From IMG/VR virus record IMGVR_UViG_3300031963_000325, positions 1 to 42,303 of that record: DNA of 42,303 bases, one strand, 5' to 3'. Made by a program: the position numbers and the translations under genes. Source of the stretch: a virus. A model generated the notes under the pieces. That model did not search any database, had not been told where the DNA came from, and saw nothing but the letters and a program-made list of their open reading frames with translations. Below are positions 36,236 through 40,778 of the stretch, piece by piece (position 1 is the first letter of the stretch; every line of letters begins with the position of its first letter).

Positions 36236-38618
36236 TTGAATGAATTATAATCCATCTTCCCATCATATCACGACCCTCCTCAGGTACAAGTCCATACTTG
36301 AATAGGCCATATGCAACCAACCACTTGTAGAACTTTGTCCTGCTTATGGTCATCTTAGACTTTGGTCCATAGTCAGGGTACTCATTTACAAAGTCATTGT
36401 ATAGCTCATTCTTGTACAGCCTAATCCCTGCCTCAAGCGTGTTGTTCTTTGGCTGACCCTCAACCAGTCCACACCACTCGATAAAGTCATGAGATGTCTC
36501 AGCAGATAGCTGTCTGATCTTAAGGTTGACAAACTTACTTCTCACTAGTCCAGTATGTAGGTATCTACTCAAGCAACCAATCATGTAGTTGTCAAACTCA
36601 CACCATTCATCATCGTTCCAGTCACCAAACATTAGCTTGCCAAACTCATCCAAAGGAGTGAATGATTTGCTGTAGTACTGGTGTAGCTCCAGTTCCCATT
36701 TTCGTCTAGCAAAGCTATTGCCCGATCCCTTGATAGCATAGTTGGTAGTGATTGCAATCTTGGGAGACTTACTGAATGGTATCTTGATAGCATCCTTGTT
36801 CTTCTTCTCTAGCGTTAAACCCTCAGTGACTACACTGAAGAGTCGCTCGAAGTCAAAGTACTTTTTTACATCATCAAATACTAGGATCTGAGTGTCGGCA
36901 GATACAAGCTGATAAGCAAAGCTTCTCTCAAATGCAAAGGACTTTCCATCTATAGTTACCACCTTCTTCATCTTAGATAGTGCGTTCATAAATAGACCCT
37001 TGCCTGTACCTCCCTCAGGATTGTCGCTGATTACCTCATCGTTTAAGATAACGGCTGGGCAGAAGCTAAGATTCTTATAACCATGCAATAAGAATCCAAT
37101 GGTACTCTCCATTGCTTCCACCCTGCCATCATCATCCCCACAAATATTACGAATGAACTTCTTGTAGTTACACCCAGATGTTACCTCGCACATGCTAAAG
37201 TTACGATCAATCACGTGATCCTTCCAAACGTATCCACCAAGGTCAAGGTAGTCAATTGGTTTCACTTCATCCTTTGTTACCTGAACAGCGCAGTTCCTGT
37301 AGTACAGGTACGATGAATGCTTTGTGTCCTCAATAAATAATATGTCGATGGTAGAAAGCATAGACAAGAACTCCTCCTTGAAGAACCTAGTATTGTCTGC
37401 AAAGTAGTTGTATACTGCAATGTCATCTAGCTCCAAAAGATGAGCAAGTACAAAGTCCTTAATCTCCTTCTCTGATGTATGGTCTATCAGGTTATTTGTA
37501 ACCTTAACAAACACATAGTTCTTACCACCCTCTGGGCAGTACTTGTAGAAGCCATTGTCCTCAAGGAACTGCTTGAATTGGATGTGGATAATACGAATGA
37601 CTCCCTTATCATTTTTGTTCCAAAATGTTTGCTTAGAGTTCTCCTCCTCCACCTTGTTCAAAACTGCTTCGATAGTCTCCGTATCCAAGTTGGAGTCCTG
37701 TAGCTGGATACGTATTTCTTTTTTTGATACTCCCCTTCTTAGCTTCGCTTTGATGGAGCTGATCCTCTCCTCATCCTCGTAGTACTTGGTACCAAAGCTT
37801 GAAGTATTCCTGTACGCTGAGTCTATGGTGGTAGCAATCTCCTTCTCCGTGAAGTCAGTTGTTGCGTACTGGTTCAGCACGTAGGATGCTAGGCTCTTGT
37901 TGATCCCAAAGTCATTGAATGCCATAGCAAGGATGTACACGTTGTGATTGCGTTGACCCTCAATCATGGGATACTTCTTTGTCCACCACTTTATTAGGAT
38001 CTCAATTACCTTGTTCTCATCCGTGATTGGTATCGTAGGCTGGTCCCTATACTTGCTTACCTCCGTGTACTCAATCTCCTCAATTACATCCCACACAGAG
38101 GAGTTCTCGTTGATGTGTAGCAACGGATCATAAGACTCGTAGCATACCCTAGATATGTTCTTGCTAGTCTTGTCAAAGTATGGGCTGTTGAAGTACTTCT
38201 CTAGGCTGTTGAAGTAGTTGATGTGGTTGTCCTGATCGGCAGGAATCTTTACCAATACCTTTAGGCCGTTGCCAGATGGAGATACAAAAACAGAGTACAC
38301 ATACTTGTTCTTAGACAAGTTCTCCTTGTCCTGTAGCAACTCCTTCTGCTTCTGATACCCATCAAAGTCTAGGCATATCAAACCACTATGTTCTATTATA
38401 GCGTTGTCTGCCCTCTTGGTAAACGTACCGCTGAAGCAAATTGCTGGTAGTTGTTTCTTTAATTCATTACGCTCAGGCTTTCTCTTCTCTGCCCTGATCT
38501 TCTTGACCAACTCCTTTGTTGCTCCCGACTTTATTCTCTCAAGGATTACCCCTACATTCCTGTGGAACGGAGTGCTTGTGTCCTTGATACTCTGAAATAT
38601 GGTGACCTGATATGTCAT
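36219..38618 (-). CDS. Primase-helicase: BT4734/VirE prim-pol, PriCT-like and SF3 helicase
   Basis: About 799 residues from ATG 38618, which I prefer to the TTG at 38627. The N-terminal domain has LICLDFDG with the catalytic D-x-D, followed by YSVFVSPSGNGLKVLVKI, the pattern of the BT4734-like/VirE N-terminal prim-pol family of Bacteroidota elements. Residues 205-275 are PriCT-like. The C-terminal part has the SF3/D5-type helicase with Walker A NPEGGTGKG near residue 535, Walker B ILVFDDV near 580 and motif C IAITTNY. It would lay primers and unwind DNA at the phage origin. GACAT iterons lie right at and upstream of its start. Confidence 0.88.
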   Translation of the reverse strand: MTYQVTIFQSIKDTSTPFHRNVGVILERIKSGATKELVKKIRAEKRKPERNELKKQLPAICFSGTFTKRADNAIIEHSGLICLDFDGYQKQKELLQDKENLSKNKYVYSVFVSPSGNGLKVLVKIPADQDNHINYFNSLEKYFNSPYFDKTSKNISRVCYESYDPLLHINENSSVWDVIEEIEYTEVSKYRDQPTIPITDENKVIEILIKWWTKKYPMIEGQRNHNVYILAMAFNDFGINKSLASYVLNQYATTDFTEKEIATTIDSAYRNTSSFGTKYYEDEERISSIKAKLRRGVSKKEIRIQLQDSNLDTETIEAVLNKVEEENSKQTFWNKNDKGVIRIIHIQFKQFLEDNGFYKYCPEGGKNYVFVKVTNNLIDHTSEKEIKDFVLAHLLELDDIAVYNYFADNTRFFKEEFLSMLSTIDILFIEDTKHSSYLYYRNCAVQVTKDEVKPIDYLDLGGYVWKDHVIDRNFSMCEVTSGCNYKKFIRNICGDDDGRVEAMESTIGFLLHGYKNLSFCPAVILNDEVISDNPEGGTGKGLFMNALSKMKKVVTIDGKSFAFERSFAYQLVSADTQILVFDDVKKYFDFERLFSVVTEGLTLEKKNKDAIKIPFSKSPKIAITTNYAIKGSGNSFARRKWELELHQYYSKSFTPLDEFGKLMFGDWNDDEWCEFDNYMIGCLSRYLHTGLVRSKFVNLKIRQLSAETSHDFIEWCGLVEGQPKNNTLEAGIRLYKNELYNDFVNEYPDYGPKSKMTISRTKFYKWLVAYGLFKYGLVPEEGRDMMGRWIIIHSNEQDD

Positions 38619-38686
38619 AAATGTCAATTGTATGTCGTTATTATGTCGTGTAACTTGCTGACTATTAGCTTTATGTCAATTATGTC
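38612..38686. repeat. GACAT iterons, candidate origin or operator
   Basis: ATGTC (GACAT on the coding strand of the primase) occurs at 38612, 38621, 38632, 38643, 38673 and 38682. Steps are 9, 11, 11, 30 and 9 bases, close to helical turns. Flanks are also similar (TTATGTCRAT type). The first copy overlaps the primase start codon. They lie next to an A/T-only tract, as in iteron origins, but could equally be autoregulatory operators. Confidence 0.6.
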
Positions 38687-38723
38687 GATTTTTAATTTGA
38701 TTTCTAGTCAAAGAAAAAAGAAG

Positions 38724-38780: not shown

Positions 38781-38806
38781 AAAAAAAGAGGGGAGACCCC
38801 CTCTCC
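38781..38806 (-). terminator. Intrinsic terminator ending the recombination operon
   Basis: On the minus strand AGAGGGG/CCCCTCT forms a seven-pair stem with a four-base loop (arms 38798-38804 and 38787-38793), then a run of T (A run at 38781-38787). It starts a few bases after the stop of the 86-residue gene, so transcription of the operon ends here and the primase must be served by another promoter or by read-through. Confidence 0.8.
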
Positions 38807-38808
38807 TT

Positions 38809-39069
38809 TTAATATAGTAACTCGTCTGGCTCTGCAACCTTAGGTTTGCTTACTGCTTTCCTTGGTTCAAAGGTGTCGAGTTCAACGTATAGGTTCCCAG
38901 ATCTACCTCTCTTCACATCGAGGTTTACCCATCCATTCTTGCTATGCTTTTTGATAAAAGCAATGATCTCCTCCTCCTTTAGTGATAGGTTGCATATTAG
39001 GAAGTCCTTTGCATCGTCTCTTCTTTTTGCAATAATTCCATCTGCGAAAATTTTCTCTTTCTTTTCCAT
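38809..39069 (-). CDS. Small acidic-tailed protein, possible ssDNA-binding protein
   Basis: 86 residues. Central part DFLICNLSLKEEEIIAFIKK and NGWVNLDVKRGRSGNLYVEL resembles a widespread small protein of Bacteroidota phages and prophages, encoded near recombination genes, function not settled. It ends in an acidic, hydrophobic tail (EPDELLY), a style seen in ssDNA-binding proteins. It is last in the annealing protein/exonuclease operon and has a long leader with a potential pseudoknot, followed by an A-rich start ACAAACAAACAAAATG. An ssDNA-binding role is a guess from tail, context and leader. Confidence 0.6.
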   Translation of the reverse strand: MEKKEKIFADGIIAKRRDDAKDFLICNLSLKEEEIIAFIKKHSKNGWVNLDVKRGRSGNLYVELDTFEPRKAVSKPKVAEPDELLY

Positions 39070-39100
39070 TTTGTTTGTTTGTTTTGGTTTTTAATATAGT

Positions 39101-39170
39101 TAAAGGGAGACTACCTGCTAACAACTCACACCCCAATTGCAGGTAGGTGGGGTCACTTAGCCTCCCTTAG
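39101..39170 (-). promoter_or_regulatory. Predicted H-type pseudoknot inside an outer stem, mRNA leader
   Basis: On the minus strand an outer stem AAGGGAG/CTCCCTT (39162-39168 with 39103-39109) encloses two interleaved stems: ACCCCA with TGGGGT (39148-39153 with 39130-39135), and CTACCTGC with GCAGGTAG (39139-39146 with 39111-39118). The order a-b-a'-b' is a classical H-type pseudoknot with loops of 1, 3 and 11 bases, feasible for the minus-strand RNA but not for the plus strand. It lies 33 bases before the start codon of the 86-residue gene. It may act as a translational operator or ligand-sensing element. Confidence 0.6.
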
Positions 39171-39430
39171 TTAAATTGATTTCTCATTGAAAGCAAACAA
39201 TCATACATTGGTTTTTTACTTTCGAGCCTGTTACAAATAACCATAATCCTATTCTCACTATTCTTATCAATTGAAAATACTTCGTATGTTCCGTATTCAT
39301 GTTCAAATTTTGTCCCAACTGGAATTAAAAAATGAAAATATTTAGGGACAAATCCGAAGTCATCCATCAATATATATTCGACAAGATATTTATCATCTAA
39401 TTCGAAATCTTCAAAATCATTCATAGTCAT
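39167..39430 (-). CDS. Hypothetical acidic protein
   Basis: 87 residues, acidic N-terminus (NDFEDFELDDKYLVEYIL), then beta-like strands (FHFLIPVGTKFEHEYGTYEV, RIMVICNRLE). Possibly a small SH3-like barrel; no family recognised. Starts five bases after the exonuclease stop; Met3 is an alternative start. Its stop codon falls within the outer stem of the pseudoknot element. Confidence 0.6.
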   Translation of the reverse strand: MTMNDFEDFELDDKYLVEYILMDDFGFVPKYFHFLIPVGTKFEHEYGTYEVFSIDKNSENRIMVICNRLESKKPMYDCLLSMRNQFN

Positions 39431-39435
39431 TTTAA

Positions 39436-40167
39436 TTAAAGGGTTTCGTTTATAAAATAGTTTTCAATATCGTCCGTTGGATTTGGTCCAAAGAACTTGT
39501 AGTATACTTCCATTGCTCGTTCAACCTTAGCCTCACCGCCTCTGACGAACTCCTCAGATGGTCTAAACAGACCCAGCTGTTTTGTTTCCTTGTCAATAAC
39601 GTAGAAATACAACGGCTTTCCAAATAACTCCTGATAAATGTAGCACTGGGAGTCATAGTTGTAAGACTTAGCAGACCATTTAAACTTGTTGATATCTGAT
39701 GTGGTCTTCAGGTCAATGATGAACTCCTGTGATACGATGTCAGCCTTAGCTTTCCAGTCCAGTCCCTTGATGGATCCTATGATTGGTTCCTCATAAAGGT
39801 TGCCCTCCCTGTAGATGTCCTCATAGAACAAGATGTTGGACTTCATAACACCAGCGAGATCGTGTATCTCGATGTATTCTTTAGTCAAAAGAGCGAACTC
39901 AAGACCACTTTCTTCCAAGAACTTTTTATACTCCTTTGTATTACGTGTGCTAACATCCACGTGTGGCACGTTTAGAGCCTTCTCAGGCTCGAGAATTAGC
40001 TGGTGGAATAGTCTACCCTCATGAAAGTGTTTTGAGTCCTCTGAGCGGGCTCTAAATAGCTTAGGATTGGTAAGCAATGAATAGATGTCGGAGTTGGATA
40101 GGTAGTACTTACCTTTTCCGTTGTAATACTCCTCATCATTTCTTAGTTCTTCGATTACTGACTGCAT
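39436..40167 (-). CDS. RecE-like PD-(D/E)XK exonuclease
   Basis: 243 residues. GRLFHQLILEP at 51-61, DWKAKADIV with Asp143, EFIIDLKTT with Asp152 and Lys154, and YDSQCYIYQE with Gln174 are the conserved motifs of phage RecE/exonuclease VIII-type PDDEXK nucleases (DUF3799-like). It would resect dsDNA ends to give 3' overhangs for the annealing protein, whose gene ends 13 bases inside this one. The pair forms a two-gene homologous recombination system. Catalytic residues are all present. Confidence 0.85.
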   Translation of the reverse strand: MQSVIEELRNDEEYYNGKGKYYLSNSDIYSLLTNPKLFRARSEDSKHFHEGRLFHQLILEPEKALNVPHVDVSTRNTKEYKKFLEESGLEFALLTKEYIEIHDLAGVMKSNILFYEDIYREGNLYEEPIIGSIKGLDWKAKADIVSQEFIIDLKTTSDINKFKWSAKSYNYDSQCYIYQELFGKPLYFYVIDKETKQLGLFRPSEEFVRGGEAKVERAMEVYYKFFGPNPTDDIENYFINETL

Positions 40168-40778
40168 AAATTTACAATCTCCTTTTTGAGGTCAGTTGAT
40201 ATCACATACTTTGCATTAAGCTTCTTGCCTATAGACTCTATACCCTGATCCTTGTTAGCTTTTACAAAAGCTACCACCTTGTTCCAGTTATCTGATCCCT
40301 TGACAAGAACAACTGGCTCATCCTTCTTTAGTGGCTCGGGTGCTTTTACTGGTTCTGAGTCAGGCAGATCTTCACCTGCGTAGATGTAGATACCTAGACC
40401 AAACATGGCTAGGTTCTTAACTAAGCAACGCATGATTGTCTTGTTGATGTCGAATGTGGTGGCTGCCTCCACCTGCTTGTCTCCGTACTTGGTAGAGTAT
40501 GTGTACGGCTTCTTCTTCATGGACTTGTTCTTACCATCCATCACTGGCAACCACATCTCTAGGGTCTGACCTTCGATAGTTACCGATGTATGGCACATGA
40601 ATCCTAGATCCTCATCATAGTCTGTAGGCATGATGGTGTAGGATGCATCTGGACATTCCTTCTTTACTACAGACCATGCCCATGCCCACGATAGGTAGGT
40701 AAGTCCATCCTTCTTTTCAACGTACTCGTTTACGTTGATTGCTGATAGTCTTTCGAATACTGATTTTGTTTGTGTCAT
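40155..40778 (-). CDS. Single-strand annealing protein, Sak3 / DUF1071 family
   Basis: 207 residues. TYLSWAWAWSVVKKECPDAS near residue 27, and FDINKTIMRCLVKNLAMFGL followed by GIYIYAGEDLP near 120-150, are hallmarks of the DUF1071 (Sak3-like) annealing proteins, which promote strand annealing in phage recombination and replication. A Pro/Glu/Lys linker at 150-165 leads to a small helical C-terminal domain. The stop overlaps the exonuclease start, and the ATGA overlap at its own start links it to the DnaA-C-like gene. Confidence 0.85.
   Translation of the reverse strand: MTQTKSVFERLSAINVNEYVEKKDGLTYLSWAWAWSVVKKECPDASYTIMPTDYDEDLGFMCHTSVTIEGQTLEMWLPVMDGKNKSMKKKPYTYSTKYGDKQVEAATTFDINKTIMRCLVKNLAMFGLGIYIYAGEDLPDSEPVKAPEPLKKDEPVVLVKGSDNWNKVVAFVKANKDQGIESIGKKLNAKYVISTDLKKEIVNLCSQ

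Follow-up and report, generated by a model that had tools for sequence, protein, structure and literature searches.

Element D, a 66-nt element in the leader of the gene for an 86-aa SSB-like protein, is a genuine folded RNA, beyond what chance pairing accounts for. It was found in a viral window of 42,303 nt, by which we mean the whole stretch of DNA that was analysed. Relatives of the gene keep leader pseudoknots of the same layout despite differing letters, and the leader therefore looks like an uncatalogued control element. From these comparisons, its most likely action would be translational control of the operator type via the pseudoknot, to which we assign a probability of roughly 40%. 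A wider and tentative reading is that two undescribed phage RNA classes are present here: a widespread, covarying pseudoknot in the leaders of SSB-like genes, which would parallel the T4 gene 32 operator independently, and a mobile 66-nt pseudoknot with a near-invariant core, which passes between the flanks of tRNAs and the leaders of genes and might bind a ligand, act as a catalyst or recruit a protein.

Element D and its gene neighbourhood

In the minus-strand RNA element D consists of an outer stem around an H-type pseudoknot (Table 1). The sequence-only reading of this DNA had described stems of 7, 6 and 8 perfect pairs and loops of 1, 3 and 11 nt in that RNA, and all of them were found where it had placed them. 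A strict Watson-Crick H-type pseudoknot with stems of 6 and 8 bp occurs once in the 42-kb window (both strands). Shuffling the window 60 times yielded 13 such pseudoknots (0.22 per window), none of which lay within a 7-bp outer stem. For the leader alone, the stacking score was reached by none of 100 shuffles. The ordinary minimum free energy fold of the same leader was not significant (z -0.84), because nested folding cannot contain pseudoknots.

The outer stem can also form in an alternative register of 11 pairs (39168-39158 with 39113-39103), which takes the last three pairs of S2. Three bases are common to the outer stem and S2, so that S2 has competing forms of 8 and 5 bp; the comparison of these forms rests on six D sequences, too few to decide between them. 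An extra pair adjoining the 7-bp outer stem is G-U, A-U or G-C among homologues, compatible with an outer stem of 8 bp as well as 11 bp. On the minus strand of 39119-39168 a Shine-Dalgarno-like GGGAGG is followed by CTAA GTG, giving a 12-codon frame that crosses the pseudoknot and is probably a chance feature.

Table 1. Positions of element D, its parts and the neighbouring genes in the window
Feature	Position	Strand	Basis
Sak-like ssDNA annealing protein gene	40155..40778	-	phrog_659
Exonuclease VIII-like gene	39436..40167	-	phrog_412
87-aa ORF directly upstream of element D	39167..39430	-	ORF; homologue before class A pseudoknot in L182
Element D, whole folded unit (outer stem around H-type pseudoknot)	39103..39168	-	pairing, BLAST edges
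Outer stem, 5' strand AAGGGAG, 7 perfect pairs	39168-39162	-	pairing, compensatory changes
Outer stem, 5' strand including 11-pair alternative register	39158..39168	-	pairing, comparison
Outer stem, 3' strand CTCCCTT	39109-39103; 39103..39113 in 11-pair register	-	pairing, comparison
S1, 5' strand ACCCCA, 6 pairs	39148..39153	-	pairing, shuffles, covariation
S1, 3' strand TGGGGT	39130..39135	-	pairing, covariation
L1, C, 1 nt	39147	-	sequence
S2, 5' strand CTACCTGC, 8 pairs, inner 5 invariant	39139..39146	-	pairing, shuffles, comparison
S2, 3' strand GCAGGTAG	39111..39118	-	pairing, comparison
L2, AAT, 3 nt		-	sequence
L3, GTGAGTTGTTA, 11 nt, near-invariant between phages	39119..39129	-	comparison of copies
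A-rich, G-free initiation region from element D to AUG, without Shine-Dalgarno sequence	39070..39102	-	sequence
86-aa SSB-like gene	38809..39069	-	homologues; weak PHROG SSB matches for a few homologues
Intrinsic terminator-like site 3' of SSB-like gene, 8-T tail	38786..38806	-	terminator scan

The genes stand in the order Sak-like annealing protein, exonuclease VIII-like, 87-aa ORF, leader, 86-aa SSB-like, terminator-like site, primase/helicase-type and helicase. Among relatives the order annealing protein - exonuclease - SSB-like - primase is conserved, with the exonuclease gene upstream in 123 of 143 loci and the primase gene downstream in 129. The SSB-like gene had been said to follow the annealing protein and exonuclease genes; the operon order bears this out, except that the exonuclease gene and the leader are separated by the 87-aa ORF. 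The stop codon of this ORF overlaps the outer stem of element D, and its homologues also stand upstream of the SSB-like gene in two other loci (L218 and L234). From the pseudoknot to the AUG the window has 33-41 nt of A-rich sequence with one UUAAA-type motif. No tRNA was found in the window. In relatives a similar G-rich run and T run follow the SSB-like gene. Between the SSB-like and primase genes of the window (38610-38700) there are six GACATA/GACATT repeats beside a TATATA-rich tract; repeats of this type occur at the matching place in relatives and are possibly an iteron-like origin.

Most homologues of the 86-aa protein from viral contigs carry ..DDLPF at the C-terminus, an acidic tip of the SSB type, in agreement with the acidic tail noted earlier. 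This ending resembles the tip of bacterial SSBs. The window protein had no match in Pfam or PHROG; PHROG SSB families gave weak matches for a few homologues. NCBIfam, PDB sequences and Foldseek gave no convincing match for the SSB-like protein, and its predicted fold was of low confidence, with no reliable PDB match. The best VIA-align hit was SmpB, with a Z-score of 2.3, which is not meaningful. The acidic tip and the operon position make it a well-motivated inference that the 86-aa protein is probably an ssDNA-binding protein. The hosts are probably Bacteroidota, judging from distant primase relatives in Flavobacterium, Polaribacter and Cellulophaga phages, and initiation would therefore proceed without a Shine-Dalgarno sequence.

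Pseudoknots in the leaders of SSB-like genes

We compared 143 distinct leaders of SSB-like genes (<85% identical to one another). An H-type pseudoknot was called if its score was reached by no more than 2 of 200 dinucleotide shuffles, its end being allowed 8-50 nt before the AUG. Such a pseudoknot was found in 85 of the 143 leaders, and in 80 of these 85 its 3' end lay 15-27 nt (about 20 nt) before the AUG. Stacking sums of -28 or lower occurred in 40 of the 143 SSB-like leaders (28%) versus 3 of 1258 other leaders from the same loci (0.24%); distinct leaders are not fully independent, and therefore the counts overstate the number of evolutionary events. In the tree, few of whose branches were resolved, protein clades match leader classes. 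The strongest pseudoknot of the 1258 control leaders (stacking sum -35.5) precedes an ORF starting at 2686 (+) in L092, which is another gene. The GenBank phage MW202828 has an SSB-like gene, whose leader as read is without a pseudoknot of this kind.

The main class of leaders, class A, has an S1 of 6-16 bp with variable sequence, an L1 that is often a single A, an S2 of 7 bp and an L3 mostly ending in AAAYAGA. In a gapless alignment of 39 class A leaders 21 of 23 pairs had changes on both sides, and 88% of the cells were paired versus 28-50% in slid-register controls; these leaders had been selected partly on helix 2 and not on helix 1, yet 83% of the helix 1 cells were paired. In a test of S2 that was free of helix selection, a 7-bp S2 was present in 58 of 65 leaders chosen by the loop anchor alone, versus 8% with foreign 7-mers. 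S1 kept 131 G-U cells, whereas A-C cells numbered 11 versus 43 expected, a sign that the class A structure acts as RNA of the coding strand. The initiation region of class A (about 18 nt) is 61% A and 2% G.

Class A was confined to one gene. A pattern scan of 2.9 million viral contigs revealed 36 true copies; 35 of them stand directly before an SSB-like gene, and for the 36th the contig ends just after the start codon of the same gene. Another 17 pattern matches, without S1 and without the AAAYAGA loop, were rejected as chance. In 25 phage records the class A model found at most one strong copy per record. Class A stays by the SSB-like gene even with tRNAs or ORFs intervening and the exonuclease gene up to 1.9 kb away. 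In about 17 of the 143 leaders its S1 begins a few nucleotides after a tRNA-like 3' end, these ends being placed at about -75 to -80 relative to the AUG of the SSB-like gene.

Other leader features were seen besides class A. Class B leaders (L035, L051, L053, L080, L299) have S2 GTTCCAAT/ATTGGAGC and an L3 of ~40 nt, and overlap a short ORF. A short spacer hairpin, GTGTCTTTGAAGACAC / GTGTCTTCAAAGACAC, stands before the SSB-like gene in L001, L004, L014, L022, L032, L035, L059, L105, L171 and others, often directly after a stop codon; L079 has the variant CTGTTCGAACAG.

The nearest relatives of the window by exonuclease (L432-L447 and L493, 81-91% identity) mostly have neither leader nor pseudoknot: the stop codon of the exonuclease gene is followed 7 nt later by the AUG of the SSB-like gene. 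In a few, an additional short ORF separates the two genes. The leader of the window is therefore a lineage-specific insertion or replacement. In a few loci (L433 4237-4503, L445 4237-4500, L442 4418-4681) the same operon slot is occupied, without a leader pseudoknot, by a divergent SSB-like protein with KIYGGSSRV.. in its N-terminal half and WVNLKI..HYLEVDTWKP in its C-terminal half.

Element D in other phages

An unfiltered search of the window with a model built from the 39 class A leaders (R1) gave no match at element D. Because of this, and because near-identical D copies adjoin class A leaders, the window element does not belong to class A. A second covariance model (R2) was built from six D sequences, the window among them. 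Seven of about 150 records scanned carried D, one copy each. Five of these seven seem to be near relatives of each other (four have SSB-like proteins nearly identical to one another, the fifth was read in part), which leaves about three independent lineages. GenBank phages and plasmids contained no match to D.

Phages of one other lineage carry copies with 94-97% identity to D, although exonuclease identity is no more than about 63%. In BLAST searches the similarity to other phages was limited to query positions 7/8-74 and broke off at the edges of the outer stem. The core of D is preserved near letter-for-letter in phages that carry a class A leader too, where the usual order is stop codon, D, 3-5 nt, tRNA, class A pseudoknot, SSB-like gene. 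This spacing of 3-5 nt 5' of the tRNA was found in L517-L520; in L519 the first tRNA is separated from the SSB-like gene by an additional small ORF and another tRNA. In the copies read, D starts a few nucleotides after an upstream stop codon or tRNA-like end. The tRNA genes adjoining D (on its 3' side) or class A (on its 5' side) were Rfam matches, often missed by ARAGORN and some >100 nt long (L119 3851-3923, L176 2816-2924, L517 1425-1494 on the minus strand, L519 1575-1682, L520 1575-1682).

A diverged copy of D was found in the L441 phage, a close relative of the window by exonuclease. It lies downstream of a helicase gene, after a tRNA-like stretch and before a 53-aa ORF; here, as in the window, an A-rich leader of 19-33 nt separates D from the AUG. 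Ten of 44 stem columns of the diverged copy were changed versus none of 22 loop columns. Both-sided changes affected three pairs, two in the outer stem and one in S1 (C-G to U-A), and one further pair changed from G-U to G-C. Compensatory changes, proposed earlier as the check on homologous leaders, are thus strong for class A (21 of 23 pairs) and weak for the window element (3 pairs).

Element D is not specific to SSB-like genes, since elsewhere it stands before tRNA genes and before an unrelated ORF. A tie between this pseudoknot and the SSB-like gene, as would suit the autoregulatory circuit that the sequence-only reading put forward as possible, was not supported: D copies precede tRNAs and in one case another gene, and the closest relatives of the window are mostly leaderless.

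Possible action and known systems

On the operator reading, the SSB-like gene of the window phage would have element D as its cis-acting leader structure. Element D occupies the place where relatives carry their leader pseudoknot, with an unrelated sequence and the same topology, and ends just 5' of an unstructured A-rich ribosome-binding stretch. A protein may nucleate at the pseudoknot and spread along the A-rich stretch over the AUG; the simplest candidate is the SSB-like product, after free ssDNA has been saturated. This would amount to translational repression of the kind exerted by gp32 in T4. In Bacteroidota, as work on Flavobacterium johnsoniae shows, translation starts depend on upstream adenines and on low secondary structure near the start codon (PMC6847099), and protein spreading from the pseudoknot would therefore repress. 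Three steps of this model are inferred: the 86-aa protein would bind both ssDNA and RNA, would recognise this leader and would repress expression. For class A the fixed AUG distance, the A-rich and G-poor start region, the conserved loop and the restriction to one gene favour gene-specific translational control. T4-gene-32-like autocontrol is accordingly plausible there, as position and gene specificity fit; the argument has less force for D, since D also occurs away from the SSB gene. The gene 32 likeness proposed earlier is partly supported: the operon, the acidic tip and the fixed-distance, covarying pseudoknot of class A speak for it, and the placing of the window element outside the SSB-specific class speaks against it.

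Since D is not tied to the SSB-like gene, roles in mRNA boundaries or stability, or as an RNA with a conserved core, remain serious rivals. D and class A may cap RNA ends at tRNA-processing or cleavage sites, protecting or insulating the mRNA without binding the SSB-like protein, an explanation that we consider possible but doubtful. The starts of D just after stop codons or tRNA-like ends are consistent with it, and with D ending 3-5 nt 5' of a tRNA and class A S1 following a tRNA-like 3' end (about 17/143), the tRNA is often bracketed by two pseudoknots. A precedent is the very stable T4 gene 32 mRNA, in which RNase E cleaves at -71, immediately 5' of the pseudoknot (PMC3014915). The explanation leaves the fixed ~20-nt distance of class A from the AUG and its exclusive association with SSB-like genes unaccounted for, and a tRNA is missing next to most class A leaders and from the window. 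That D is an independent small RNA (ligand-binding, catalytic or trans-acting), moved between phages and standing before the SSB-like gene by chance, appears unlikely. The identity of 94-97% despite diverged exonucleases, the end of similarity at the outer stem, the unchanged loops of the diverged copy and the small number of records that carry D (7 of about 150) would all suit such an RNA. Against this, D had no Rfam match even at relaxed thresholds and is without a demonstrated promoter of its own, its gene context suggests no ligand, and with only three independent lineages the high identity may merely mean recent transfer.

The remaining explanations fit less of the evidence. An intrinsic terminator or attenuator, in which the outer stem precedes a short U tract and the pseudoknot is the competing fold, is improbable. 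The GGGAG/CTCCC stem is indeed followed by TTT(T), D follows stop codons, and the three bases shared by outer stem and S2 allow two competing folds; but there are only 3-4 U, and a scan that required a G+C-rich hairpin followed by at least 5 T in 8 passed over D while flagging the site after the SSB-like gene with its 8-T tail. Class A leaders, moreover, have no such outer stem. Chance pairing, or a hitch-hiking repeat without function, is very improbable: although each shuffled window should yield about 0.2 bare 6/8 pseudoknots and D is absent from the closest relatives, the outer stem appeared in none of 60 shuffled windows, and compensatory changes, conserved loops and the same layout in relatives would be left unexplained. 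Least credible of all is a readthrough signal for the 87-aa ORF, with the pseudoknot just downstream of its UAA. The frame in the window stays open for about 75 codons past this stop, but the homologous ORF in L182 is followed by UAG AAG UGA, which closes the frame, and class A pseudoknots stand at any distance from the upstream gene.

The operator reading invites comparison with known leader pseudoknots. Small riboswitches such as preQ1 and SAM-II have a compact H-type pseudoknot in the leader. This is shared by the leaders described here, and class A has an A-rich L3 with the conserved AAAYAGA; unlike these riboswitches, they had no Rfam riboswitch match and precede a gene that is not metabolic. 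The E. coli rpsO (S15) operator is autogenous and has a leader pseudoknot (PMC3014915), but the gene encodes a ribosomal protein; sequences were compared via Rfam only. The STAXI motif also lies near Ssb-type genes and comprises two to three tandem pseudoknot units, often with UUCG loops (Weinberg et al. 2010, PMC2864571), whereas a single unit without UUCG, and without Rfam match, is present here.

The closest parallel is the T4 gene 32 operator, in which a leader pseudoknot is followed by a less structured A/U-rich initiation region and bound by the SSB gp32 (PMC535899, PMC3014915). The leaders share with the operators of T4, T2 and RB69 an H-type pseudoknot, a probable ssDNA-binding gene and a replication-recombination operon, and may also share a less structured A/U-rich initiation region 3' of the pseudoknot. 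They differ in that no sequence or protein homology was found (the window protein showed no gp32 likeness by Pfam or PHROG and no convincing one by PDB sequences), in the host group, in the lack of a Shine-Dalgarno sequence, in the class A S1 of up to 16 bp and in the outer stem of D and its occurrence before tRNAs too; repression, moreover, is predicted here. If the inference holds, the leader would work like the gene 32 operator and, as far as tested, would not be a member by descent. Our search of the open-access literature found no description of a leader pseudoknot for SSB genes of non-T4 phages. Should repression be shown, the covarying pseudoknots that precede SSB-like genes in unrelated phages would provide a second, independent case, and the way such operators function where no Shine-Dalgarno sequence is present could then be compared directly.

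Element D is a compact, highly conserved RNA new to Rfam; neither D nor class A had a match at gathering or relaxed thresholds. The Rfam search returned only tRNAs, chance-level matches and a sub-threshold hammerhead, the last being a type III hammerhead ribozyme match in L117 (97-152, plus strand) of 32 bits versus a gathering threshold of 48.5 (E 0.006).
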